From: Candidatus Anstonella stagnisolia
GTDB lineage: Archaea; Micrarchaeota; Micrarchaeia; Anstonellales; Anstonellaceae
NCBI GenBank assembly: GCA_902384585.1
Contig: CABMCJ010000004.1
Coordinates: 634,086 to 698,085, forward strand
DNA: 64,000 nucleotides
Direction of reading: 5' to 3'
Shown here: piece by piece, positions 10,676 through 55,702 of the stretch
How positions within the stretch are numbered: position 1 is the first letter of the stretch
Layout: each line of letters opens with the position of its first letter
The notes under the pieces: generated by a model
What the model was told of the DNA's origin: nothing
The model's input: only the letters and a program-made list of their open reading frames with translations
Databases searched by the model: none
Program-made: the position numbers and the translations under genes

Positions 10676-11641
10676 TCAGATGGCAGGGAAGTGCGAATAG
10701 CGGTATTCCTCGTAAATGCGGATTGGCTCCTGCTCAACAAGGTACTTGAAGAATTTGTGCGCGATGTGCTCCTTTATTTTACGAAGCTCCGAGCCTCCTG
10801 AGACTACTGCGTCATAAAAGAAATTGTATTCGCCCACCATGGTGACCACGCGCGTGACCGTGGGCATCGTGGACACGTAGGAAAGCACGCTGTCAAACGT
10901 CTTGGAATCCGGCACGTTGAGCTTCACGTATATGCGGTAGTGGTGCGCCCCGTAAAGGTTAGGGTCGACGCTTATTGAATACCCCTGTATCACGCGGGAC
11001 TTTTCAAGCTGCTTTATGCGGTAGCGTATTGTTTCAGGCGGCATTTTCAGCTTTTTGGACAATTCCAGGTAGGATGCCCGCGCATTTATGCTAAGCGCGG
11101 AGAGTATTTTCGTGTCCTTGTCGTCAAGGATTACCGGCTGGGACTGGATGCCTATTGAAAATATGGGGGCGCGTATTTCCTCGTCGCTTAGGGGCATGCG
11201 AAAACGCAGGGATTTCATGTGCAAAAAGTGGAATTCGTTCACCATGTGGCCGCGCAGCAGGAAATGCACCTGCTGCTGCTTCTCGGCAAGCTCGTATACG
11301 TTTGGTATCACAAAGCCTATCATGAGGTTCCATTTGCCGTCGCACTTGAACAGCATTGAGGGGTTGAGGGCAAGGAGCTTTTTGAAGATGGTTTTTTCCT
11401 GAAGCTCCGAATAGGGGCTTATCTCGTAGCAGAACATGTCGAAGGTGTACCGCAGCTTGGCGCGGTCTATCATCGTTATGAATGCCTTTATGCTGCCCTC
11501 GCGGTAGAGCTTTTGTATGCGGTAATTCAGCCTTTGCTTGGACATGCGCATCTTTTTGGCAAGCGCGCTCAGGGGCATGCGGGAATTGACGTAAAGCTCG
11601 TACATTATGCGCCTGTCTATGTTGTCCAGGTCCTCTCCCAT
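10676..11641 (-). CDS. Double-HTH Lrp/AsnC-like transcriptional regulator
   Basis: 321 residues. Two Lrp-type DNA-binding units are present: residues 5-60 (LDNIDRRIMYELYVNSRMPL, KRMRMSKQRLNYRIQKL-like) and about 175-230 (ILDDKDTKILSALSINARAS, PPETIRYRIKQLEKSRVIQG). Each is followed by a sandwich-like half. It is twice the length of ordinary Lrp proteins and of the same build as the regulators at 44148 and 46858. The minus-strand TATA-like TTTTATTAA near 11668 lies about 26 bases before the ATG, so the mRNA is probably leaderless. The target is not evident. Confidence 0.82.
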   Translation of the reverse strand: MGEDLDNIDRRIMYELYVNSRMPLSALAKKMRMSKQRLNYRIQKLYREGSIKAFITMIDRAKLRYTFDMFCYEISPYSELQEKTIFKKLLALNPSMLFKCDGKWNLMIGFVIPNVYELAEKQQQVHFLLRGHMVNEFHFLHMKSLRFRMPLSDEEIRAPIFSIGIQSQPVILDDKDTKILSALSINARASYLELSKKLKMPPETIRYRIKQLEKSRVIQGYSISVDPNLYGAHHYRIYVKLNVPDSKTFDSVLSYVSTMPTVTRVVTMVGEYNFFYDAVVSGGSELRKIKEHIAHKFFKYLVEQEPIRIYEEYRYSHFPAI

Positions 11642-42548: not shown

Positions 42549-44147
42549 ATGCGGAAAGGAAATAAATTTGGTGGGCAAGTGGATGCGCAACTGTATGCAA
42601 CGCTTAACAAGGGCTGGAAGTCAACGTGCAAAATACTTTTTGGAAAGGAAATAGGGGAACTAGAGGGGTATGAGGAATACCTTTCTGAATATCTGCCGCC
42701 ATCTGCAAAAAGAAAATCGCTCATAAGCGGCAAAAATGTGATAATAGCGAAGGACAGCTATCCGAAGAACGCACGCTTTATTTCAGAGGATGAGCTTACT
42801 ACGAACAAAAACTATGCGCTTTCCATAAACGACATAAAGGACATGGACTCGCTGGTGAGAGCGCTTGGGGAGAATGCGGAATACACTGGAAACCGCTTCC
42901 TTGGGAACTCCGCGTTTGTGAGCGAATCGGACATTGTGCTTGATTCCCAGTACGTGCACAACAGCACGAACATTGAGCAGTCAACGTATGTGTATTCCTC
43001 TTATATGATGCGCAGGGGGAGCAAATATTCGTATGGAAGCGGCTGGACTGCTGCCGGGGAATTTGTTGTGCGCTGCGTTGCAGGCATAAACCTGCGCCGC
43101 TGCATTGAAACCCATTTTGCCGCGGATTGTTCGGATGCTTACTTCTCGTTTGACTGCCATGGGTGCAATGATTTGCTCTTTTGCTTTGGGCAGAGAAGCA
43201 AAAGCCACTGTATAGGCAATCTTGCGCTTGCACGGGAAAAATACGCGCAAATAAAGCAAAAGTTGCTTGGGGAGATAGCGGGTGAGCTTGAAAAGAAAAA
43301 GAAATTTCCCTCGCTCTTTGAGCTTGTGCCGAAAATGCCGCCTAAAAATATTCCGAAAATAACGCCATCAATGCCAAAAGACGAAAAAAACATGGCGGCA
43401 ATAGAAAAGGGGTTTTCCGCAACGTATGGGATTATCCTGAAACACCAGCCTGCGAGCATATGCGACTATGAGAAATGGCTTGGGAGGAATACTGTAAGGG
43501 TAGTGCCAGTACCTTCGGTATTTGGAAATGTTACTTACCTTCCGCAGGACTTCCCTGTTTTTCAGCTTCTTCCAAAAAACCGCTTAGTGAACGTTTTTGA
43601 ATCCATTGAGGCAGGAAAAACTTTTAGGGTGGGAGAGCAATCGCTTTCCAGCCTGAATTCTTTGCTTAAGGAGCTGGACAAAATAGCATTTTTCACTGCG
43701 GAATTTTACGATGGGGAAAACCGCAACATTATAGGCGCGCCCCTTGTGCTGCACAGCGCAAATGTGTACAAGGGGTATGAGGCGACTTACTCTGAGCATT
43801 CGGGCTGCACATCGCTTTCACTGCACTCAAAATACGTGTATGGGTGCCACCGCATAATAGATTCGCAATTTTCGCTCAAGTGCTACAATTCGCTTTATCT
43901 GAACCGCTGCCTTGAGCTTGATGGCTGCAACAAGTGCGCGGACTCGTATTTCTGCCACAACTGCGAGGGGCTTACTGACTGCATGTTCTGCTTTAACATG
44001 AAGGGAAAGAGGTTTGCAATCGGGAATACGGATTTGGAAAAAGAAAAATATGCGCAGGTAAAAGAGGCGCTTTTGAAGCAGATGGGGGAGGAGCTTGGGA
44101 AAAAGAAAGAGCTCAAATGGGACATTTACAATATCGGGGCAAAGTAG
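42549..44147 (+). CDS. Duplicated Cys-rich beta-solenoid protein, paralogue A
   Basis: 532 residues, two homologous halves. N half: YATLNKGWKSTCKILFG opening, a repeat zone NSAFVSESDIVLDSQYVHNS, then a Cys-rich strand ladder (DCHGCNDLLFCFGQRSKSHC at 202-221) and IGNLALAREKYAQIKQKLL. C half: AIEKGFSATYGIILKH opening and, from about 470, CHNCEGLTDCMFCFNMKGKR with AIGNTDLEKEKYAQVKEALL and the end KKELKWDIYNIGAK. The Cys pairs suggest metal or disulfide bonds. No catalytic motif or membrane helix is visible. It starts 37 bases after GGGPS and is tail-to-tail with an Lrp-like gene. Function unknown. Confidence 0.8.
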   Translation: MRKGNKFGGQVDAQLYATLNKGWKSTCKILFGKEIGELEGYEEYLSEYLPPSAKRKSLISGKNVIIAKDSYPKNARFISEDELTTNKNYALSINDIKDMDSLVRALGENAEYTGNRFLGNSAFVSESDIVLDSQYVHNSTNIEQSTYVYSSYMMRRGSKYSYGSGWTAAGEFVVRCVAGINLRRCIETHFAADCSDAYFSFDCHGCNDLLFCFGQRSKSHCIGNLALAREKYAQIKQKLLGEIAGELEKKKKFPSLFELVPKMPPKNIPKITPSMPKDEKNMAAIEKGFSATYGIILKHQPASICDYEKWLGRNTVRVVPVPSVFGNVTYLPQDFPVFQLLPKNRLVNVFESIEAGKTFRVGEQSLSSLNSLLKELDKIAFFTAEFYDGENRNIIGAPLVLHSANVYKGYEATYSEHSGCTSLSLHSKYVYGCHRIIDSQFSLKCYNSLYLNRCLELDGCNKCADSYFCHNCEGLTDCMFCFNMKGKRFAIGNTDLEKEKYAQVKEALLKQMGEELGKKKELKWDIYNIGAK

Positions 44148-45143
44148 CTAGTTTTTCACAAAATGTGCGAAGGGATTTGGCGAATACTCCTTGTACACGA
44201 TGAGCGTCTCGTATTCGCGTATCACGTCTGGGAACTCCTTTTTTATCCTGCCAAAAAGCTCGTGGAACTCAACCGAGTTTTTCGCATCAATGCCAAACTG
44301 CATGTCCCATGCGCCCACCATTGAGGAGATGAAAAAGCATTCCGGGAATTCGTTCAGGAAAGAGATGAGCCGCTTTATGCCTTTTTGCTCAGGGTAAAGG
44401 CGCATGAAAATCTGGTTGTGCTGGTATCCGAGCTTTTCGCGGTCAAAATAGCTCTTTACCTGCGTTATCACGCCTTCGCGCATCAGCCTCTTTATCCGAT
44501 AGTGCACTGCATCCGCGGAGAGCTTCACCTTCCCTGCTATTTCAACCGTGGGCATGCGGGCATTTTCGGACAGGATGCCAAGTATGCGCAGGTCTATTGC
44601 ATCGTGCTTCACAACCCCAACGCTTGTTGGGACCTCATGCAAGGGTGATTTCGCCCTTTGTTTCTGGGTGAGCCCGTAAGTTGAGGGCCACCAGGTGTGC
44701 CTAAGCTGCCTTGTGACCTCTTTTTCGCGCACATATTTCCCATAGTGCTCAAGGAAGCGGTCCATTGTTGCGTTGAACTCAAAAGTGTCGTGTGCGCTTA
44801 TGCGCGCTATCACGTCCCATCTGCCGTCGCACAGCCCTATCCACTGGCAGGGCATTTTGTCACGGATGTACTCCACCATTTCCTGCTCTGTTTTCGGGCT
44901 TGTTGCAAAGAACTGCAGGTAAATGCGGTAAGTCCCTATGCCGAGCTTGTCAAAAAGCGGGATTGCAAAGAACTTGCGTATTATGCCGCCCTTGAGGTAT
45001 TGCCTTATGCGGTAATTCACAACCTGCGCTGAAACTTTTGCCTTGCGCGCTATCTGCGCCGAGCTTTGGCGGGCGTCTGTTTCAAGCTCAAGCAGTATTT
45101 TCCTGTCCTTTTCATCCAGTTTTATTGCAATATTTTCCTTCAT
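44148..45143 (-). CDS. Double-HTH Lrp/AsnC-like regulator, divergent from paralogue B
   Basis: 331 residues from the ATG at 45143 (MKENIAIKLDEKDRKILLEL), which a TATA-like CTTTATTAG about 26 bases upstream supports as a leaderless start. HTH 1 covers residues 9-58 (RQSSAQIARKAKVSAQVVNY), HTH 2 about 172-225 (MPTVEIAGKVKLSADAVHYR). Each is followed by an RAM-like half. It is close in plan to the regulators at 10676 and 46858. It ends flush with paralogue A and starts 94 bases from paralogue B, so it probably controls B or itself. Confidence 0.83.
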   Translation of the reverse strand: MKENIAIKLDEKDRKILLELETDARQSSAQIARKAKVSAQVVNYRIRQYLKGGIIRKFFAIPLFDKLGIGTYRIYLQFFATSPKTEQEMVEYIRDKMPCQWIGLCDGRWDVIARISAHDTFEFNATMDRFLEHYGKYVREKEVTRQLRHTWWPSTYGLTQKQRAKSPLHEVPTSVGVVKHDAIDLRILGILSENARMPTVEIAGKVKLSADAVHYRIKRLMREGVITQVKSYFDREKLGYQHNQIFMRLYPEQKGIKRLISFLNEFPECFFISSMVGAWDMQFGIDAKNSVEFHELFGRIKKEFPDVIREYETLIVYKEYSPNPFAHFVKN

Positions 45144-45207
45144 ATTGTAGTAAAGCCGCAAAAACTAATAAAGAAATGCGTTTTTAGCTGAAAAATCGCG
45201 CAAAGCC

Positions 45208-45216
45208 CTTAAATAA
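45208..45216 (+). promoter_or_regulatory. TATA box of paralogue B
   Basis: CTTAAATAA is centred about 26 bases before the ATG at 45238, which implies a leaderless transcript and favours that start over ATG 45223. It lies 65 bases from the start of the divergent Lrp-like gene, a normal distance for operator sites. Confidence 0.55.
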
Positions 45217-45237
45217 GGCTGGATGCATAAGAAACGC

Positions 45238-46842
45238 ATGGAGGGAAAAGGCGGCTCGCAAACTTATGATGCAGTGAACAAGGCGTGGAAGAGCACGTGC
45301 AAGGTGCTTTTTGGAACCGAGGTAGGCGAGCTGGGGGATTTCTCGGAATGGCTCGAGGAATACCTTGAGCAACGCAGGTGCGAAAAGTCTTCAGTTTCCG
45401 GGCAGGATGTGTATTTTTCCGTGCACGACTATGCAAAGGATGCGCAGTTTATTGCTTTTGAAGAAATTGATTTTGGCAAAAAGTTCAAGCCGCTCTCAAT
45501 AAATGAGGTAAAGGACATAGATTCGATTGCACAGGCGGTGGGCGAGAGGGCGCAATACACAGGAAACATTTCACTTGGGAATTCGCACTATGTGCAGGGC
45601 AGCAACAATGTGATAAACGGGAATTTCATATACAACAGCGAGTTCATAAGGGACTCGAAATACGTTGGGCACTCAATATGGGTTACTGACGCTGAATACG
45701 TTTTTGGGATGGGAGGCTGCAGAACCGGCTCGCACACAATGAAATGCATGGGCGGGCAGTACAAGCGGTGCTTTGAGTGCCCTTCTTCGGAATATTTGAG
45801 CGACTGCTACTACTGCCCAAGCGCAAAAAACTGCATTGAGTGCATGTTCTGCTTTGGGGCGGAGAACGGAACGCACATGATAGGGAACATGAAACTTCCG
45901 AAAGACAAGTATGCTGAACTTAAGGCAAAACTGCTTTCTGAAATTGCGCAGAAACTGAAAAAAGACAAGAGAATTTTCTCAGTGTTTGAGCTTCTTGAGA
46001 TTGCGAAGAGGGAAAAGAGGGAGGCAAGCGGAATTAAGATGCCAATTGGAAAGCGCGCTCCCTTTAGCATGGCGCCCATAGAGGAGGCGTTTGAGAAAAC
46101 ATCTTCCATTCTTTTTGGAAAGCCCCTTGTTGGGATGGAGAGATACGGGAAATGGCTGCAAAGGCACATCCCCATGAACGAGTATTTCAGGTCGCCCTTT
46201 ACTGGGGAAGAGGCAATAGTTGCTGGGTATAGGGCGTATCTTACAAGGCAGTTTAACATTGGGGGCAGGCTTCTTCCGGAAATAGAGATACGGGAAATTG
46301 GAAAAAAGGAAATTGATGCACAGAAGCTTGTGGAAGTGGAATTTGAGCCTGAGAGCCTGTGCAGCGTGCTTGGGGAAATCGCATACTCGGACCTTAACAA
46401 GATGTTTGGGAATCTTCTGAATATTTCACATGGCGCAGTGCTTGTGGATGCACAGGACTGCTTTGAAGGAAGCGCGTTCACAAAGTGCAAGAAGTGCGCA
46501 TACTGCTTCTGGCCGGACAGCTCGGAATATGTTTTTGGCTCGCAGATGGCGTGGAAGTCCAGCTTCTGCATAAACTGCTACAATTCCAACAAGCTTACGC
46601 GCTGCTTTGAGGTGGATGCGTCGCAGAATTGTGCGGGCGCATATTTCCTGCACAACTGCGAGAATGTGCAGGACTCGATGTTTTGCTTTAATACGAAGAA
46701 TTTGAGGAATGCGATTGGGAATGCGGAGCTTGCGCAGGAGAAGTATTTGGGCGTGAAAAATGCGCTTTTTGCGCAGATGCATGCGGAACTCGAGAAGAAA
46801 AAGGAATTGAAACTGGATATTTACAATGTTGGCGCAAGGTAG
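45238..46842 (+). CDS. Duplicated Cys-rich beta-solenoid protein, paralogue B
   Basis: 534 residues from ATG 45238 (leaderless, see TATA at 45208). Same plan as paralogue A. The N half opens YDAVNKAWKSTCKVLFGTEV and continues with PLSINEVKDIDSIAQAVGER and the ladder NSHYVQGSNNVINGNFIYNS. Cys cluster one is CYYCPSAKNCIECMFCFGAE. The C half opens EEAFEKTSSILFGKPLVGME, and cluster two is NCENVQDSMFCFNTKNLRNA with IGNAELAQEKYLGVKNALF and KKELKLDIYNVGAR. It is convergent with the next Lrp-like gene, 15 bases apart. Confidence 0.82.
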   Translation: MEGKGGSQTYDAVNKAWKSTCKVLFGTEVGELGDFSEWLEEYLEQRRCEKSSVSGQDVYFSVHDYAKDAQFIAFEEIDFGKKFKPLSINEVKDIDSIAQAVGERAQYTGNISLGNSHYVQGSNNVINGNFIYNSEFIRDSKYVGHSIWVTDAEYVFGMGGCRTGSHTMKCMGGQYKRCFECPSSEYLSDCYYCPSAKNCIECMFCFGAENGTHMIGNMKLPKDKYAELKAKLLSEIAQKLKKDKRIFSVFELLEIAKREKREASGIKMPIGKRAPFSMAPIEEAFEKTSSILFGKPLVGMERYGKWLQRHIPMNEYFRSPFTGEEAIVAGYRAYLTRQFNIGGRLLPEIEIREIGKKEIDAQKLVEVEFEPESLCSVLGEIAYSDLNKMFGNLLNISHGAVLVDAQDCFEGSAFTKCKKCAYCFWPDSSEYVFGSQMAWKSSFCINCYNSNKLTRCFEVDASQNCAGAYFLHNCENVQDSMFCFNTKNLRNAIGNAELAQEKYLGVKNALFAQMHAELEKKKELKLDIYNVGAR

Positions 46843-46857
46843 TTGGTGCTGCCAGCT

Positions 46858-47844
46858 TTATTTTTTCTTCAGGCACTCTTTTTCAAAGAAGCAATATTTG
46901 TGCTCTTGGTAGATGTTAAGCGGAGTGTAGTCGGACACTATGTCATCGAATTTCTCAAGGAAATCGCGCATAAGGGCGCGGAATTCCTCGCCGTTTTCTA
47001 CTTCCACGTCCATTTCGAACTGCCACTGCGCAACAGCCTCCACTGCAAACACTATGTTGGGGTGGTGCTCGCAATAGGAGAGCAGCCGCGCTTCCTTTTT
47101 GGGGTCAAGGTTGTGCAATGAGATAAGCACCTTGTAGTAGAAGCCCTTGAGCGCATTCACATTGGGCCATATTGTGTAGTGAGTCACAATCCCTTCTTTT
47201 TCAAGCCTGCGGATTCTTTGAAGGACCGAGGAGGGGGAAAGCCTGACGCTTTGCGCGATTGCTGCTGCGCTTGCGCGGCTATCCTTGCAGAGGGCATCGA
47301 GCACAAGGGCGTCTTTTTCTTCGAGTACCACTGCGCCCTCTCTGCTGCCCCATTCTATTTTCCGCTCTATTGCACTGCCCTTTTCTGCCAAATAATCGCG
47401 GTAAAAATGGTGTGCGGCTGCGATGGGTGAGATATCCTGCTCAAGGAAATGCATCCAGTATTTTGAGTTTATTTCCTTTAGAACACGCCGTAATTCCAAA
47501 AGAGAGCGGGCTTTTATTGCAAATATTAGGGAATATTCGCCCTCGCAGCTTCCAAGCCAGGTTACAAAGGGGTTGGAGCAGAGGTCCTGGATTAGCTCTT
47601 TTTCCTCTGCTGCGCTTATGTGGCGCATTTTTGCAAATACCTTGTAATGTTCAAAGCCAAGCTTTGACATGTCCACTACTGTGAGAAAATCGCGTATGAG
47701 ACCGCCCTCCTTGTATCTTTTTGTGCGGTAAAGCACGCTCTCGCGCGCAAGCCCTGCTTTTTTTGCTATGCTTGAGAGAGGCTGGCGGCAATCCCTGTCA
47801 AGCTCGTAGAGGATGAGACGGTCTTTTTTGTCCAGTTTGTCCAT
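46858..47844 (-). CDS. Double-HTH Lrp/AsnC-like regulator, divergent from the C-D-E operon
   Basis: 328 residues. HTH 1 begins MDKLDKKDRLILYELDRDCR, with recognition helix around RESVLYRTKRYK. HTH 2 is near 180-235 (EKDALVLDALCKDSRASAAA, then SPSSVLQRIRRLEKEGIVTH). A Cys-containing tail (YCFFEKECLKKK) ends the protein. A minus-strand TATA TTTATATAAA about 24 bases before the ATG implies a leaderless mRNA. It shares a 121-base AT-rich region with the gene at 47966 that heads the C-D-E run. Confidence 0.83.
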   Translation of the reverse strand: MDKLDKKDRLILYELDRDCRQPLSSIAKKAGLARESVLYRTKRYKEGGLIRDFLTVVDMSKLGFEHYKVFAKMRHISAAEEKELIQDLCSNPFVTWLGSCEGEYSLIFAIKARSLLELRRVLKEINSKYWMHFLEQDISPIAAAHHFYRDYLAEKGSAIERKIEWGSREGAVVLEEKDALVLDALCKDSRASAAAIAQSVRLSPSSVLQRIRRLEKEGIVTHYTIWPNVNALKGFYYKVLISLHNLDPKKEARLLSYCEHHPNIVFAVEAVAQWQFEMDVEVENGEEFRALMRDFLEKFDDIVSDYTPLNIYQEHKYCFFEKECLKKK

Positions 47845-47965
47845 GTTTAATGTTTGATGTATTTTTTATATAAATATATGTGTTTTCATTAAATTTTAGC
47901 AAAAAACTTTAATATATAAGATAAGTGGCAAATAAAGAATATATTGTGGTTGAGAGGAAGAGAAA
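47845..47965. promoter_or_regulatory. AT-rich divergent promoter region
   Basis: Contains a minus-strand TATA (TTTATATAAA near 47868) for the Lrp-like gene and a plus-strand TATA (CTTTAATATATAAG, 47907-47920) for the gene at 47966, plus GAGAGGAAGAGAAA as ribosome-binding site. It is visibly more AT-rich than nearly all other gaps in the window. Confidence 0.6.
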
Positions 47966-48556
47966 ATGGCACAAATAAAAGCACTTGTAACCTGCTTCGG
48001 GATGAACGAACGTGCAGAAGCTGTGATTGGAATACGTAAAATATCTTCAGCATTATGCGATGCTGGCTGCACTGTAGAAATAGCGTACACAGCAGATAAG
48101 GCTTACGAGTCGTTCATAAAGAGCATTCAAAGTGGCAAAAAATTTGACTTGGTTGTAATTGGTCCTCATGTTGATGACGGCGATCTCTATCCTCGAGTAG
48201 TTGCGAGCAAGATGAAAGCACTCGACCCAAATATTATAGTTGTTAGCGGATTTTGCCATGACCCGGGTAGCTGCCCTGGATTAAATGTCGTTATAGGGGG
48301 TAGAACTGGTCCTCGTTTTGAGCCACCTCCAACTGGGCTTTTTGACTATTATATTCCATTATCTGAAAACCAGAAACATGAATTGCCCCAGGCAAAGCAG
48401 AATGTGAGCTTTGAAAAATTTCTGGAGCAACTGCCAAATATTCTGGATTCGATTTCCATTGCAAAAGGGCGCAGGGAAAATCTCAGGTTGGCACCTAAAA
48501 AAAGGAAACCGCAGCAGCATACTGCAAAAAAACAGCTGAAGCCCAATGTGATTTAA
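47966..48556 (+). CDS. Receiver-domain-like protein of unknown function
   Basis: 196 residues. The first 125 have a Rossmann-like alternating pattern (IKALVTCFGMNERAEAVIGI, FDLVVIGPHVDDGDLYPRVV, NIIVVSGFCHDPGSCPGLNV) like a response-regulator receiver, though acidic-pocket residues are not all clear. The tail is basic (KGRRENLRLAPKKRKPQQHT). Codon use is more AT-rich than in neighbours, which suggests recent acquisition. It precedes paralogue C by 22 bases and probably shares its transcript. Confidence 0.55.
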   Translation: MAQIKALVTCFGMNERAEAVIGIRKISSALCDAGCTVEIAYTADKAYESFIKSIQSGKKFDLVVIGPHVDDGDLYPRVVASKMKALDPNIIVVSGFCHDPGSCPGLNVVIGGRTGPRFEPPPTGLFDYYIPLSENQKHELPQAKQNVSFEKFLEQLPNILDSISIAKGRRENLRLAPKKRKPQQHTAKKQLKPNVI

Positions 48557-48578
48557 TTCTTCGGGATAAAGTGGTATT

Positions 48579-50186
48579 GTGGAAGAAACGCAGGCATACG
48601 TAGAACTTAACAAGCGCTGGAAGGCAGCATGCCGCATAGTGCTGGGCGGCGAGGTAGGGGAGCTTCTTGAATTTGAAAAATGGCTGGATGAAGCAAACGA
48701 GCCAATGGAGCATTTGCCATCAAGCGTTTCGGGGAAGGAAATCTCTTTTGGCGAGTGCGGGTATGCAAAAGGTTCAAAGAGAATAGGGTTTTCAGAAATA
48801 GATTTTGGAAAGAAATTTGAGCCACTCTCAATAAATGAGATGAAGGATTTGGATTCCGTAGCAGAAGCGGTTGCAGAGAGAGCGTACTATTGCGGCAACA
48901 TAGTGCTTGGGAACTCGAAGTTCGTGGAGCGCTCCTCAAATGTTACGGACTCGTTTTATGTATACAATTCAAGGTTCGTGAGCGACTCGAAATATGCTGC
49001 ATATTGCTCGTACTTAAGATATGCAGAAGATGTTTTTGGGAGCACAAACGACGTGTATTCCAAATTCCTTATAAGGGGGCTTGATACGCACAAGACGCCG
49101 CGCAGCCTTGAGCTTTGCGGCACTTATGTGTGCCCGGACACGTATTTTTCCTCGCGCTGCATGGACTGCCATGACTGCATGTTTTCCTTTAACCTGAAGG
49201 CAAAGGAATACCGGATTGGGAACTTTGCACTTGTGCGGGACAAATACGTGAAAATAAAGGAAAAGCTGCTTGAAGAAATGAGGCAGGAGCTTCGTGCGCA
49301 TAAGAAACTTCCTTCTTTGATAGAAATAGCTGCAAGTTCCAAAAGTTATGCAACAGAAAACCGGAAAATGCTCGCGCAAATAGCAAAGGAAGCTGCGGAA
49401 AAAGGTGAGAAAGAGGATATGGCGCCCATTCAGAAAGCGTTTGAGAAAACAAGCGCAATAGTGCTGGGCAAAAGCCTATGCGAAATGCAAAAATATGAAA
49501 ACTGGCTGCTTGGGCATGTCAAATCCATAAAGACTGGTGCATCTGCTGCAAGCAAAAGGCAGGTATCTATTGGAATGTTCATCCCGTATTGCGATTATCC
49601 TGCGAATATGCTGCTTGGGATAGGAGAGGGATGGAAGGCGGGCGAACTGCTTTCAATCTCGCAGCAGGAGGCAGAGGGAATAAGTTTTGCGAGTGTAAAA
49701 GACAGCATAGGAAAAATAGCATATTTTGTTCCAGAGGCGCGCCTGCGCGAAAATACGAATCTTATAAACACGGCGCTTGGGTATAATTCACAGAATTGCT
49801 ACAAGGGAGGGATTTATTCACAGGCAAAATACTGCGGCTGCTCTTTCTGGCCACGCGAATCCGAGCACATGTTCGGATGCGATACTGCGTTTTCTTCCTC
49901 TTTCTGCCTGCACACATATTTTTCTAATAATATTACGCGGTCTTTTGAGGTAGATGCATCAAGGAACTGCTCTGGCTCGTATTTCCTGCACAATTGCGAG
50001 AACGTGCAGGACTCCATGTTCTGCTTTAATGTGAAGAATTTGAGGAATGCAATTGGAAATGCGGCATTGCCTGCGGACAAGTTCGCTGCAATAAAAAGTG
50101 CTCTTGTTGGGCAGATGCACTCGGAACTGGAGAGAAAGAAAGAGCTAAAAACTGGCATCTACAATATAGGTGCCGGTAGTGTGTAA
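48579..50186 (+). CDS. Duplicated Cys-rich beta-solenoid protein, paralogue C
   Basis: 535 residues from a GTG at 48579 (M-E-E-T-Q-A-Y-V-E-L-N-K-R-W-K). N half: RWKAACRIVLGGEVGELLEF, PLSINEMKDLDSVAEAVAER, ladder NSKFVERSSNVTDSFYVYNS, cluster CMDCHDCMFSFNLKAKEYRI. C half: QKAFEKTSAIVLGKSLCEMQ, CGCSFWPRESEHMFGCDTAF, cluster NCENVQDSMFCFNVKNLRNA, end KKELKTGIYNIGAGSV. Its TAA overlaps the ATG of paralogue D (TAATG), so C and D are translationally coupled. Confidence 0.82.
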   Translation: MEETQAYVELNKRWKAACRIVLGGEVGELLEFEKWLDEANEPMEHLPSSVSGKEISFGECGYAKGSKRIGFSEIDFGKKFEPLSINEMKDLDSVAEAVAERAYYCGNIVLGNSKFVERSSNVTDSFYVYNSRFVSDSKYAAYCSYLRYAEDVFGSTNDVYSKFLIRGLDTHKTPRSLELCGTYVCPDTYFSSRCMDCHDCMFSFNLKAKEYRIGNFALVRDKYVKIKEKLLEEMRQELRAHKKLPSLIEIAASSKSYATENRKMLAQIAKEAAEKGEKEDMAPIQKAFEKTSAIVLGKSLCEMQKYENWLLGHVKSIKTGASAASKRQVSIGMFIPYCDYPANMLLGIGEGWKAGELLSISQQEAEGISFASVKDSIGKIAYFVPEARLRENTNLINTALGYNSQNCYKGGIYSQAKYCGCSFWPRESEHMFGCDTAFSSSFCLHTYFSNNITRSFEVDASRNCSGSYFLHNCENVQDSMFCFNVKNLRNAIGNAALPADKFAAIKSALVGQMHSELERKKELKTGIYNIGAGSV

Positions 50187-51739
50187 TGGATTTGCAGAAC
50201 GCATTTGACACAACTGGTAAAGTTCTTTTTGGGCAGCCAGTGGGAAAGCTTTCGGATTTTAAGGAATATTTGAGCGAAACGCTGCTGCCTTACCAGACGA
50301 AAAAATCATTTCTTTCGGGCAAAAGTGTTACGCTTACCAATCCTTCTTACCCTGCGGATGCGAAATTTATTTCGCAGGATGAAATGGCGCAACTCAAGTT
50401 CCAGCCGCTTAAAACGAATGAGATAAAGGATATTGATTCGCTCCTTTCTGCTGTGCGCGAGCGCGTTGTGTTCTGCGGCAATAAGATGCTGGGCAGGAAC
50501 TATGAAGTATTTGATGTTGATGATTGTGTGGACTGCACAAACGTAATCTCATCAAACAATGTGTACAATGTGAAAAACGGGGCGTACAATTCCTTTTTGC
50601 GAGAGGCAGAGAGCGTATTCGGGGTTTTCGGGGTGCCTGGTGCAAGCTTTTGCATGCGCTGCTTTGAGGGAGTGGGTGCAACGCGCTGCTTTGAGTCCTA
50701 TTACATGAAGGAAATTGCGGACATGTATTTCTCATTTAATTGTGTGGGCTGCTCTGAAGGGATTTTTGCGTTTAATTTAAGGGGGAAGCGGCACACGATA
50801 GGGAATTTGCAGCTTGAGAAAGACAAATATCTTGCGCTTAAGAAAAAACTTGTTGCGGAAATGGGGGAGGAGCTTAGGAAAAAGAAACGGATGTTCTCAA
50901 TTGTGGAGGTTGCGGTTTTCGGAAGGGATAAAAAGAAAATAAAGGCGCCTGAGATTGCGTATGATTCGCCTGTGCCGCCCAAAGTTGAGGATGCGTTCAG
51001 GAAAACATCCAAAATTGTGCTTGGGAAGGAGCTTTCCAATATAAAAAGTTATGAGGGCTGGCTTTTGACAACCTCCAAAATATCCCAGAAGATAAAAGGG
51101 GCGTCTGGAAAGCCGACATACAGGGTGGATTGGTTCCCTGTGCTCAAGGATTTGCCTGCTGATAGATTGTTGCCGCTTGATGAGGCGCTTGCATCCGCGA
51201 AAAATGCAATTGAGATTGGGAAGGATGAGCAGCCTTCATTGCAGGAAGTGCTTTCGCGCATTTCCAAGAAGGCGTTCTTTACGTTCGAATTTGTGGATGG
51301 GTACAACCAGAATTGCGTGGACATCTCGTCCATTTTCACAGGATATGAGTCCTACAAATGCTTTGATGTCACGAACTCGAAATACTGCGCATACACGTGC
51401 GGGCAGGCAGATACGGAGCACAATTTCGGTGGGTACATGCGCATGCTGCATTCGCAGTTCTGTATAAACTGCTTTAATTCCACGAAACTGAACTCGTGCT
51501 TTGAGGTGGATTGATCGTATTCCTCAAGGGGTTGCTATTTCTGCCACAATTGCGAGAACATTTCGGACTCCATGTTCTGCTTTAATGCGAAAAACTTGAG
51601 ATATGCGGTTGGGAATGTGGAGGTTGGGCAGGAAGAGTTTATGCGGCTGAAGGGGATTTTGCTCTCTTATGTGCAAAAAGAGCTTGAGAAAAAGAAAAGG
51701 CTGGACTTGAACGTTTTTAACGTCGGGTGCAAAAGATGA
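50186..51739 (+). pseudogene. Paralogue D of the solenoid family, interrupted by one in-frame TGA
   Basis: The frame runs from ATG 50186 to TGA 51737-51739 (517 codons) with a single TGA at 51512-51514. Sequence on both sides is normal family sequence: NSCFEVD before and the C-H-N-C-E-N, DSMFCFNAKNLRYAVGN end after. The length between them equals that in B and C, so it is a point change and not a frameshift. The truncated 442-residue product would lose the last Cys cluster and helical tail. The end overlaps the start of paralogue E (ATGA). TGA ends many genes here, so general recoding is unlikely. Confidence 0.75.
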
Positions 51740-53316
51740 GCGAAGCAATGTCTGTGCTGGATAGGCGCTGGCGCAATGCGTGCAAGGTCGTTTTTGGGCA
51801 GGAGGTTGGCGCCCTTGAACAGTATATGCCGTGGCTGGAAGGCATGATAGCGCCCAATGTTATGAGAAAGTCAAGCATTAGTGGAAAGGAAGTTGCATAT
51901 GCGATAGGGGAGTACGCGGAAAATTTAAGGTGGGTAAGCTTTGATGAGGTTGGAAGCAAATTCGGGCAGCTAAGCACCGATGGGATAAAGGGCATGGAGT
52001 CGCTTTTGGAGGCAGTGGGCAAAAGGGCGCAATACGCAGGCAATATAGTGCTTGGGAATTCTGCGCATGTTGAGAAAAGCTCCAGCATAAGCGACAGCTT
52101 TTACATGTACGGCTGCAGTTTGCTTGGCGATTCCAAATACTGCGCAAACTGCTCAACGGGCCGCCTATGCGTCGATTCTTTTGGCACCCACGGCCCAGGG
52201 GAATCAGAGTTTTGCATACGCTGCACGCAAACTTACAGGGACAAGAGGTGTTTCGAGCTTTGGCTGAGCCAGAACTGCTCGGACTGCTATTACTCATATA
52301 ACCTGAACAACTGCACCGACTGCATCTTCTGCTTCAACGTGAAGAACAAGCGAAACTGCATCGGCAACCTGCAGCTGCCGCGCGAAAAATACCTGAGGAT
52401 AAAGGACAAACTGCTTGCTGAAATGGCGGATGCGCTTGTGCACAAAAAGAAGCTCCCCTCCCTGATGGAATTGGCTGCGCAAATGCCGCCTGGGAAGCCA
52501 AACGTGCCCAAAGCCGCGCAAGATGCACAAGACGATACTGGGAAAAATGCTGCGGAAGGCGCGTTTGGCAAAACAACTGCGCTTCTGCTTGGAACGCCCC
52601 TAAAGGGCATTGATTCGTACAAGAAATGGCTGGAGCGCCACATTTATGTCGTGGAAGGGAAAACCTCGGTTGCCAGCGGGCGCATTATTTGGACAGTGCC
52701 ATATGGGATTGCAGTAGTGGAAATACCAAAGCACAGGATAGTGGCAATGGATGAGGCGCTTGAGATAGGCAAATTAAGCATAGGCGAATGCGACGCTGAA
52801 AAAATCACCCTTTCAAATGCCCCGCAATTTCTCAAGAACTTGGCATTTTTCCCGGTTGAATTCCGCACCGGGACCAACATCGGCACAAGCGAATGCGCAA
52901 CGGTGATAGACAGCACCTTTTCCTACCGCACATCTGACATGGTATATTCGAAATATTGCGGTTACACGTTCTATCCAAGAAGCAGCGAGCATGCGTTTGG
53001 CTGCAACCAGATTTTTGATTCCAGCTTTTGCATAAATTGCTACTATTCCGTGAAATTGACGCGCTGCTTTGAGATGGACTCGTGCAGGGGCTGCTCGGAC
53101 TGCCTGTTTTGCCACAATTGCGAGAATGTGCATGAGAGCATGTTTTGCTTTAATGCAAAGAATTTGAAGAATGCGATTGGGAACGTACAGCTTGCACCTG
53201 AAGAGTACATGCGCATAAAGAAGCTCGTGCTTGGGGAAATTGCACGAAAACTGGAAAGGGACAAAAACCTTGGGCTGGATATTTACAATGTCGGTGCTGC
53301 AAAAAGGAAAAATTAG
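51736..53316 (+). CDS. Duplicated Cys-rich beta-solenoid protein, paralogue E
   Basis: 526 residues from ATG 51736 (MSEAMSVLDRRWRNACKVVF), which overlaps the stop of paralogue D. N half: ladder NSAHVEKSSSISDSFYMYGC, clusters CSDCYYSYNLNNCTDCIFCF and the NVKNKRNCIGNLQLPREKY stretch. C half: EGAFGKTTALLLGTPLKGID, then CINCYYSVKLTRCFEMDSCR, cluster CSDCLFCHNCENVHESMFCF and end NLGLDIYNVGAAKRKN. The N half is the most Cys-rich of the five. Convergent with the large ATPase gene, one base between their stops. Confidence 0.82.
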   Translation: MSEAMSVLDRRWRNACKVVFGQEVGALEQYMPWLEGMIAPNVMRKSSISGKEVAYAIGEYAENLRWVSFDEVGSKFGQLSTDGIKGMESLLEAVGKRAQYAGNIVLGNSAHVEKSSSISDSFYMYGCSLLGDSKYCANCSTGRLCVDSFGTHGPGESEFCIRCTQTYRDKRCFELWLSQNCSDCYYSYNLNNCTDCIFCFNVKNKRNCIGNLQLPREKYLRIKDKLLAEMADALVHKKKLPSLMELAAQMPPGKPNVPKAAQDAQDDTGKNAAEGAFGKTTALLLGTPLKGIDSYKKWLERHIYVVEGKTSVASGRIIWTVPYGIAVVEIPKHRIVAMDEALEIGKLSIGECDAEKITLSNAPQFLKNLAFFPVEFRTGTNIGTSECATVIDSTFSYRTSDMVYSKYCGYTFYPRSSEHAFGCNQIFDSSFCINCYYSVKLTRCFEMDSCRGCSDCLFCHNCENVHESMFCFNAKNLKNAIGNVQLAPEEYMRIKKLVLGEIARKLERDKNLGLDIYNVGAAKRKN

Positions 53317-53317
53317 C

Positions 53318-55702
53318 TTATTTCTTTTTCTTTGCCTTTGCAAGCGGCTTTTTCGCGCTCTTCTTTGCTTTTGGAGCGCTTGCCTGCTTCTTCTTTATTG
53401 CGTCTATTTGCTCAAGGAGAGAGCTTCGCGCGGGCTTTTCTTCTTCGGCAGGGGTTTCCTCTTCCTGAGTTAATGAGAACTCGTTTTCGCCAAAGGGCTT
53501 TTCTTCGGAAGATTGTTCGTTTTCTTCGTGCGCGCTTTCTTCGGAAGCACTCTCTTCTGTTTTTTCTTCCGTGCTTTCTTCTTTTTCTTCCTGGGAACTT
53601 TGAGAAAATTCATCTTCACTTGGTTTTTCTTCTTCAGGTGCGATTGGTTCTTCTGCTTCTTCATGAACTGCACGCCTTTTCCTCTTGTGCGGCTTTGTCT
53701 CCTCGCCCTCAAGCTTGCGCAGGTCCTCCTCAAGTTTGAAGTCCATCCAGCTTGGCTTTTCCTCAGCTTGTGATTCGGGTTTTTCCTCTTGAGATTCTGA
53801 ATCTTTTTCAGTGTGCATAATTGATTCGTGCGATTCTTCGTGTCCTGTATGCATTTCGGATTCATTTTCAGTGTGCATTGTGGTTTCTGCTTCGGATGAG
53901 CCTGCGCCGTGCATGCCGCCCGTTTCAGTTTCGGGCTTCTTCACTTTGTCGCGCGCTGCCATTGCCTTTTCGTATTTCTCTGCGAGCTGCTGGGAGGTTA
54001 CGCTGCTTTCGGAATAGCCCCAGCGCGCAACGTCAACCACTTTCAGCTTCATGGGAAGGATGTATTTTTTGCCGTCGTACAGGCGCACCATGCATTCTCT
54101 TTGGTGCAGGCGCACGAACATTTCCTTCTTGGACTCCTCTATTTCTGTTTGCGAGCGGGCTTTCTTGAAGTATTCTTCAACTTTTATCTCCATTATGGAG
54201 CTTATCATTGTCGCGTCCTGGCGGTTGAGCTTGAATGCGATGATGTTGCGGATGTTGGATATTATGCTGTCATGCACTTCCTTGGAGAGCTGCCCGAGGT
54301 ACTGCATTGAGAGGTATGCGTAGAGGTTGAATTTGCGCGTCTCCGCGAGAATGTCGCGCACCACGCGGGTTTCCACGCGCTGGAATTCGTCCATCACAAG
54401 GATGGTGGGCTTGTCAAGCTTCTCAGTAATTGCGAGTATGTACATCTGGTTTATGATGGCGCCTGCAAGGAAGTTTATCATGCGCTTTCCAAAGAAATTC
54501 GGGTTAAAGGACACGACTGTGATGCGGTTGTTTTTCACAAGGTCGTAGAGGTTCTCTTGTTTCTTGTCCCCGCCTAAATACAACTCGTATTCCCCAACGA
54601 AGTTGAGGATGGGAAGCACTGCATCGTTGAAATGGTGGATGTAAATGTCGTTGAACTCCTCGTCAAAGAAGCGCTTTACCTCGTCGTTGTTTGTCTGGGA
54701 CACGAACTCGGCGCGCTTTGAGGAATCTGTAAGGAGAAGGGAAACGTTTCGCAAATCCATCTTGTCTATTGCGGAGAGAAGATGTACGGCGTAGAAGAGG
54801 ACGCGCTCGGAATATTTGTTTTCCTGCCCGATTGCGGAAGAGAGAAGCTGCGCAATAAGCTGAGTCATGAGGGGAGTTTTCACGCCGCCAACGTCAAGGG
54901 GCTCAATGTAATTGTCTATGAGGTTCACGATTTTTTCATTCGGGAAGACCTTGAGGAATTCCCCGTGCGGGTCTATTATCACAAAGCGCACGTCGTCCTT
55001 TTGCTTTGCCTCAATTGCCTTGAGCATTGCGTAGAGCGCCTTGCTCTTTCCTGTGCCTGAGGCTCCCACTATCAAGGTGTGCTGGAAAAAGTCAAAGTTG
55101 TCCACTCCCAAAGTCATTCCGGTTTCTTCAAACACGGGAAACTGGGAGGAAAGGGACATGCGCTTGGGTATGGGCTCTAGAACCTCCACGTATACTGAGG
55201 GGTTCTGTTCCATATCCACTATCATGAAGCGTTCCGGGGTTGTGCTGAGAATGATGCTCTTTCGCCCAAACTCGTCAATTGCGCTCCCGTAGCCCCAGTA
55301 TTTGCCGAGCATCTTTATCACGCGCAAGTGCACGTCTTCCATTTTTTCCTTGAGCGCAAAGGAAAGGAAATCCTGGGAGCCCATAAGCGCGTAGAATTTT
55401 GGGATTGGGAAAAGCGAGCCTTTTTTCCGCTCTATTTCCAGCGGGTCCGAGAGCTTGTAGGGGAAAACCAGCATTGATGTTTCCTCCATGCCCTTTCGGT
55501 CCTTTATGTAAAAGTGCACGGTGTTGAGCTTTCTCTCTATGTAAATGTTGAGCGGGTTCGTGGAGAATATGTCGGAGAAATCAATAAAGCCGAAAAGCGG
55601 AAGGCGGGTTTTTGTGAGCTGGTTGAAGAAATTAAGCACGTCCCCTGCCTTTATGTTCACTGTGTAGAGCAGGACCTCCCTAACGCTTATTTTGCCTCCC
55701 AT
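53318..55702 (-). CDS. VirB4/HerA-like ATPase with an acidic low-complexity tail
   Basis: 794 residues. Walker A is G213-S220 (GASGTGKS), VRFVIIDPHGEFLKVFP follows, Walker B is PTILVMDEFQRVETRVVRDI and the motif AYLSMQYLGQLSKEV is an A-x-x-x-Q region, all like VirB4/TrwB/HerA pumps. The first 200 residues hold beta-rich N-terminal parts. From about 590 the tail is Glu/Ser/Lys-rich with MHTE repeats (three M-H-T-[EG] units) and ends in a Lys/Ala-rich basic patch (KKSAKKPLAKAKKKK), so it could bind DNA. A membrane transfer or DNA-pumping role is inferred. Confidence 0.8.
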   Translation of the reverse strand: MGGKISVREVLLYTVNIKAGDVLNFFNQLTKTRLPLFGFIDFSDIFSTNPLNIYIERKLNTVHFYIKDRKGMEETSMLVFPYKLSDPLEIERKKGSLFPIPKFYALMGSQDFLSFALKEKMEDVHLRVIKMLGKYWGYGSAIDEFGRKSIILSTTPERFMIVDMEQNPSVYVEVLEPIPKRMSLSSQFPVFEETGMTLGVDNFDFFQHTLIVGASGTGKSKALYAMLKAIEAKQKDDVRFVIIDPHGEFLKVFPNEKIVNLIDNYIEPLDVGGVKTPLMTQLIAQLLSSAIGQENKYSERVLFYAVHLLSAIDKMDLRNVSLLLTDSSKRAEFVSQTNNDEVKRFFDEEFNDIYIHHFNDAVLPILNFVGEYELYLGGDKKQENLYDLVKNNRITVVSFNPNFFGKRMINFLAGAIINQMYILAITEKLDKPTILVMDEFQRVETRVVRDILAETRKFNLYAYLSMQYLGQLSKEVHDSIISNIRNIIAFKLNRQDATMISSIMEIKVEEYFKKARSQTEIEESKKEMFVRLHQRECMVRLYDGKKYILPMKLKVVDVARWGYSESSVTSQQLAEKYEKAMAARDKVKKPETETGGMHGAGSSEAETTMHTENESEMHTGHEESHESIMHTEKDSESQEEKPESQAEEKPSWMDFKLEEDLRKLEGEETKPHKRKRRAVHEEAEEPIAPEEEKPSEDEFSQSSQEEKEESTEEKTEESASEESAHEENEQSSEEKPFGENEFSLTQEEETPAEEEKPARSSLLEQIDAIKKKQASAPKAKKSAKKPLAKAKKKK

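Follow-up and report, generated by a model that had tools for sequence, protein, structure and literature searches.

The 64,000-nucleotide window analysed here (C4:634086-698085 of genome G000, Candidatus Anstonella stagnisolia; 1.33 Mb in six contigs, Candidatus Micrarchaeota, order Anstonellales) carries an array of five genes for a family of cysteine-rich, internally duplicated proteins and, convergent with it, a gene for an ATPase of the HerA/FtsK/TrwB superfamily. ATPase and family are very probably functionally linked, being gained and lost jointly across the phylum and lying side by side even in its deepest lineages. More tentatively, it is proposed that one soluble hexameric translocase of the HerA/TrwB type is shared by the family proteins, which would be its interchangeable partner subunits, specific to different conditions. 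The genes concerned are the following:

42549-44147, plus strand: family protein 1, 532 amino acids, two homologous domains
44148-45161, minus strand: double-domain Lrp/AsnC regulator, divergent to protein 2 across a 61-nt gap
45223-46842, plus strand: family protein 2, 539 amino acids
46858-47844, minus strand: second double-domain Lrp/AsnC regulator, divergent to the gene of the 196-residue protein
47966-48556, plus strand: protein of 196 amino acids, function unassigned, between the second Lrp regulator and family protein 3
48579-50186, plus strand: family protein 3, 535 amino acids
50186-51739, plus strand: family gene 4, interrupted; open reading frame up to the stop 50186-51514, 442 amino acids
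51727-53316, plus strand: family protein 5, 529 amino acids
53318-55702, minus strand: HerA/FtsK/TrwB-superfamily ATPase, 794 amino acids, convergent with the array

Among 301 genomes of the phylum, 50 hold both family and ATPase, four the family only, two the ATPase only and 245 neither, in a count that accepted strong ATPase matches only and scored weak P-loop matches as absent, with the exception of G236, which was included because its weak ATPase match adjoins a family gene. The corresponding Fisher test gives p ~1e-49, a value that ignores shared ancestry and overstates independence; a set of 59 genomes gives 31 with both, two with the family only, two with the ATPase only and 24 with neither. 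Better evidence than p-values is the repeated joint presence or absence of the two, as in the genera of mixed content (g13, g19, g22 and g3), where family and ATPase have been gained or lost together.

The nearest family gene is usually less than 450 bp from the ATPase gene (it is farther at loci L038, L055, L078, L081, L091 and L099), and in the window 19 bases separate the homologous stretches of family gene 5 and the ATPase gene. Such adjacency is kept in the deepest lineages, where the ATPases are only 29-33% identical to that of the window. In remote lineages, single-domain relatives of the family are clustered tightly behind the ATPase gene on one strand. ATPase and family gene share a strand at L139, with 18 bp between the matched stretches, and at L142 and L141/L148, with 38 and 11 bp, respectively; at L138, the genes A and B, each encoding one half of the protein, overlap with the ATPase gene, all on one strand, and a regulator-like gene points away from them upstream; at L136 and L137, the ATPase adjoins just one A+B pair. 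That deep lineages and minimal forms keep the two side by side suggests that motor and partner are the core of the system and the large family an elaboration. When neighbouring genes were clustered, the ATPase came first among the recurrent ones, followed by Lrp and HTH_10 regulators; no membrane protein, channel or relaxase gene was found among these recurrent neighbours, and the remainder reflects local synteny. The neighbour data, like the tree discussed below, derive from metagenome-assembled genomes (MAGs) of 55-100% completeness.

The ATPase gene lies just outside position 53316, where a sequence-only reading of this DNA had ended the array, and was missed by it. The protein consists of an N-terminal beta-rich domain, an ATPase core (residues ~200-560) and a charged low-complexity tail. 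Pfam matches are TrwB_AAD_bind (3.7e-12) and DUF87 (1.5e-8), and the P-loop residues G213, G216, G218 and K219 are invariant, as are D438-E439 (Walker A and B motifs). Its structural model, with a predicted local distance difference test (pLDDT) score of 82.8 and a predicted template modelling (pTM) score of 0.68, is matched by Foldseek to DndH-C (3.3e-13), TrwB (9.7e-13) and HerA (1e-12), to VirB4, and to the HerA-SIR2 and HerA-DUF4297 complexes; furthermore, the PADLOC mad8 profile matches the core (E 7e-15). The N-terminal region has no membrane helix, the 19-residue Kyte-Doolittle maximum being 0.89. The ATPase is separate from any NurA-linked HerA, because the only NurA gene of the genome (C4:395323-396105) is ~290 kb from it (C4:687406-689787). 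The C-terminal quarter (53321-53902, minus strand) is a long acidic low-complexity tail with a Lys/Ala-rich end, the length of which varies between species. At L038:14024-15897 and L045:10285-12791, the ATPase gene is in pieces (frameshift or stop), owing to sequencing error or decay.

Dedicated regulators had been proposed for the array, and the wider genome bears this out: six of the eight double-domain Lrp genes of G000 adjoin family genes (C2:100k, C2:123k, C4:295k and C4:368k, besides the two in the window), a pairing with p ~3e-9 by a rough calculation that assumes ~1400 genes. The genome has a single HTH_10 gene, which likewise adjoins a family gene, and two TrmB-like genes face away from other family copies; the gaps between divergent regulator and family genes are 61-128 nt. 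Since three regulator families serve one protein family, the arrangement points to separate control of each family copy. A further double-domain Lrp-type gene of the window (10676-11641, minus strand; C4:645k) has no family gene adjoining. As for other neighbours, toxin-antitoxin pairs of the AbiEi/AbiEii type (PADLOC E 1e-15 and 4e-21) lie between or beside family genes in the arrays at L010:1683-2899, L032 and L054, and also at L055, while a SIR2-like reading frame (L025:8124-9575, minus strand) and a RelE-like toxin-antitoxin pair (L019:8467-8965, minus strand), both judged by eye from the sequence, are next to dispersed family genes.

With family protein 2 as query, 22 matching stretches were found in G000, corresponding to ~19 genes at 15 places when each of the three genes split into A and B halves is counted once. 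The family is present, patchily, in 33 of 59 relatives, with 0 to 26 stretches per genome. Named homologues are mainly from Candidatus Micrarchaeota MAGs, and a single scan for homologues returned Micrarchaeota and related archaeal MAGs; LFW-283_2 is Candidatus Bilamarchaeum dharawalense, of the order Anstonellales (PMC8561730). The array had been taken for a local expansion, perhaps a variable one, and the tree of 148 full-length proteins does not support a recent event of this kind: the nearest neighbour comes from the same genome in 7 of the 148 cases, against 6.7 upon label shuffling. In the comparison with the same-genus genome G001, three copies are clear orthologues, at 76-83% identity, the others giving 35-65% matches. 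The family set is therefore old, shaped by gains, losses and now and then a broken copy, not by a recent burst at this place, and its tandem copies are ancient paralogues.

The internal duplication read from the window genes is confirmed by the alignment of the N and C halves at E=1.4e-62 over 246 columns (hhalign). In many genomes the two halves are encoded as adjacent A and B genes, and single-domain proteins, found in other taxonomic families of the class, align with the N and C halves at E=1e-32 and 7e-32, respectively. Each domain begins with an alpha/beta cap, continues as a ladder and closes with a helix. The motifs originally listed were found again, and are conserved across 74 full-length homologues, namely the opening W/K/C/FG helix, PLSINExKDxDS, the Ser/Val ladder, CxFCFNxK, IGN, KY and the DIYNIG end. 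Full-length and B proteins end in a conserved C-terminal [DS]I[YF]NIG, and the tail of the single-domain forms is different. Long N-terminal extensions (up to 890 amino acids in a few homologues) were considered as fusions and rejected, as they appear to be upstream open frame rather than domains.

The ladder itself is strongly periodic, the column autocorrelation of Ser reaching 0.62 and 0.60 at lags 6 and 12, respectively, that of hydrophobicity 0.44-0.46 at lag 12 and that of Cys 0.43-0.57 at lag 3; with p ~5e-5 for each by column permutation, it is not a product of chance. In the AlphaFold2 model of family protein 2, built from residue 7 on (pLDDT 85.1, pTM 0.88), the ladder is made of isolated bridges every six residues, with moderate pLDDT (~62-79) in much of it. 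Judging from the periodicity and this model, it is probably a narrow solenoid of 6-residue steps and 12-residue coils, without a solved relative. Of the beta-solenoid originally suggested, the 6/12-residue periodicity stands, and a standard beta-solenoid finds no support, as nothing among solved or viral structures (PDB and BFVD) matches the model in Foldseek (best E 4.2 and 0.4, respectively), fair though the model is. Nor do the five proteins match anything in Pfam, NCBIfam, PADLOC or PDB sequences, so that the family is undescribed by sequence and by predicted fold alike, as had been supposed; no description of it was found in the literature, Micrarchaeota genome papers included, under the terms tried. 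Weak PADLOC matches of single members were treated as noise. PHROG 15341 (function unassigned) weakly matches the Cys-rich ladder (E 1.6e-7), a match of the repeat only that composition may drive, and tblastn of 50,697 phage records found no family match. An origin from mobile elements was discarded, with no relative in IMG/VR (either profile), phage records or plasmids; one IMG/VR motif match (L127) spans unrelated phage tail genes and was put down to chance.

The family proteins contain 3.4-5.1% Cys, for which Cys4 metal sites had been suggested, an idea that the comparison of homologues does not support. Only C198 (93%) and C482 (96%) are near-invariant; the other Cys columns, mostly at 32-88%, swap with Ser, Ala, Thr, Val or Gly, and the cysteines occupy ladder positions, in keeping with the solenoid period of 3/6/12 residues. 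Furthermore, the Cys pattern differs among the N half, the C half and the single-domain forms, the latter having invariant C193 and C202, with Ala at the C202 position in the C half. A metal site common to the family seems unlikely, because the Cys columns exchange and the invariant Cys differ between forms. The 19-residue Kyte-Doolittle mean peaks at 1.28, without signal peptide or membrane helix, in agreement with the sequence-only reading, and the family is probably cytoplasmic. A resemblance to KxYCIxNxxY proteins had also been noted, and it holds at the level of the signature: single-domain relatives carry it outright (KQYCIANRQYTKEEY, KKYCIANMQFTKEEY), those of Micrarchaeota have KxYCIxNxQ[YF]TKEEY at the equivalent place, and the window proteins have lost its second Cys, with AIGN instead of CIAN. 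In this signature, the single-domain relatives resemble a group of Cys-rich proteins of the candidate phyla radiation (CPR) and DPANN with NLRNKxYCIxNxxY. One single-domain-type member (L172, G054:C8:32-706) is found in a genome also holding the two-domain type, so that the forms can coexist.

The five paralogous genes claimed for 42549-53316 are all real, homologous open reading frames found in place, one of them broken. For protein 2, the start first given (45238) is an in-frame alternative to 45223; protein 1 has a true orthologue, at 83% identity, in G001. Gene 4 is interrupted by an in-frame TGA at 51512-51514, past which same-frame homology runs on to ~51736 for 74 codons, giving an uninterrupted length of ~516 codons; intact copies are present in relatives, and gene 4 is probably either a young pseudogene, through a recent nonsense mutation, or a sequence error. 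Selenocysteine insertion or readthrough was rejected as unneeded at this TGA, which falls in a non-Cys column of the sole full-length copy in the genome with an internal stop; the other TGA that was flagged (C4:295908) terminates a split A gene in the ordinary way. The 196-residue protein (47966-48556) has no match in Pfam, NCBIfam or PHROG and is not recurrent elsewhere, and whether it is a member of the system is uncertain.

If the family proteins are indeed partner subunits, the system probably began as an operon of two genes, one for the motor and one for a single-domain partner. This partner would have become a protein of two domains in Anstonellales, or else an A+B pair of separate halves, each domain copy with its cap, its ladder of Ser/Val and then Cys steps, and its C-terminal helix with a short conserved tail, and would have diversified into many ancient paralogues; some would have stayed beside the motor, and others would have spread elsewhere in the genome, with an Lrp, HTH_10 or TrmB regulator of their own. 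Made under different conditions, the paralogues may dock on the shared motor ring and set its target, most likely DNA or a DNA-protein complex along which the motor would translocate, in an accessory genome-maintenance or genome-protection role. That one constant HerA-type translocase takes more than 20 ancient, separately regulated partners of a new fold, and is re-targeted by a choice of partner that depends on conditions, would amount to a modular machine of a kind not recognized before, in a near-minimal archaeal genome, but this seems rather doubtful. Several observations weigh against the partner proposal itself. G008, G015 and G165 hold family genes with no ATPase detected, G002 and G029 the ATPase with no family gene detected, and genome incompleteness (83-100% complete) accounts for only some of these exceptions. 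Most family copies are far from the ATPase gene, and in most Anstonellales family and ATPase are convergent, not co-operonic. No residue set of the family looks catalytic or DNA-binding, none resembling an active site is kept across both halves and the single-domain form, and the physical interaction of motor and partner is one that we infer from gene linkage.

The family proteins could also be export substrates, effectors or surface proteins destined for neighbouring cells, with the ATPase as the secretion coupling protein that recognizes them, perhaps by the conserved [DS]I[YF]NIG end of full-length and B proteins. The pairing of a single motor with numerous cargo-like paralogues, the presence of TrwB among the best ATPase fold matches and a lineage thought to include cell-associated archaea would fit such a function, which is nevertheless unlikely, given that the ATPase, unlike VirD4/TrwB, has no membrane helix (N-terminal Kyte-Doolittle maximum 0.89), that no membrane component recurs near it, that no toxin-like or variable domain is fused to the family proteins, and that the tail differs in single-domain forms. 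Sensors of ligands or metals, or storage proteins, working with the adjacent transcription regulators while the ATPase link is secondary, would agree with the regulator genes (Lrp, TrmB or HTH_10) that diverge from many copies across gaps of 61-128 nt and with the Cys content of 3.4-5.1%; this is highly improbable, however, as three unrelated regulator families on one family suggest gene regulation rather than partnership, the Cys columns are not strictly conserved and the co-occurrence with the motor would go unexplained.

A HerA-partner immune complex against viruses or plasmids, in which the family proteins sense or bind invader products, also appears improbable. HerA-SIR2 and HerA-DUF4297, which are immune complexes of HerA and a partner, are among the ATPase fold matches, mad8 matches the core (E 7e-15), the family is patchily present, AbiE toxin-antitoxin pairs lie within some arrays and a RelE-like pair, recognized by eye, beside one copy; but the mad8 and HerA matches concern the generic ATPase core, the family has no effector domain (no significant Pfam or PADLOC match), the dispersed copies are surrounded by ordinary genes and paired with regulators of metabolic type, and the paralogues are ancient and conserved, not fast-turning. 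Defence overlaps with the proposal of exchangeable partner subunits, genome protection being one of its possible outcomes.

Micrarchaeota are very small, symbiont-like archaea, and reduced archaeal genomes of ~1 Mb rarely retain at least 20 copies of anything; up to 26 genes of ~1.6 kb, gained and lost with one motor, must matter to these cells. With a HerA-type motor linked to it, what was an anonymous Cys-rich protein becomes a two-component system open to testing, and its minimal forms (L136-L139 and L142) offer small units that can be expressed for biochemistry. Should the single-domain form belong to the Cys-rich CPR/DPANN family, the result would bear on a wider set of unexplained proteins.

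Among known systems, the ATPase fold is shared with the TrwB/VirD4 coupling proteins, with VirB4 and with CedB/CedD of crenarchaeal DNA import (PMC11868833), and 290 residues of a distant ATPase homologue are matched weakly by NCBIfam CedD; as a difference from these systems, the window ATPase has no membrane helix and no channel gene adjoining. The HerA-SIR2 and HerA-DUF4297 anti-phage complexes (PDB 8wld, 8sub, 8ziq; PMC12198126) likewise join a HerA-type ATPase to an accessory partner, although the family described here has neither a SIR2 nor a DUF4297 domain, nor any detectable enzyme domain. Finally, whereas the partner in the archaeal HerA-NurA end-resection complex (PMC5715905, PMC4351679) is NurA, encoded in G000 ~290 kb away, here it is a different protein (no Pfam match), multi-copy and under its own regulators; in both cases, a soluble HerA-superfamily ATPase is accompanied by a dedicated partner encoded alongside.
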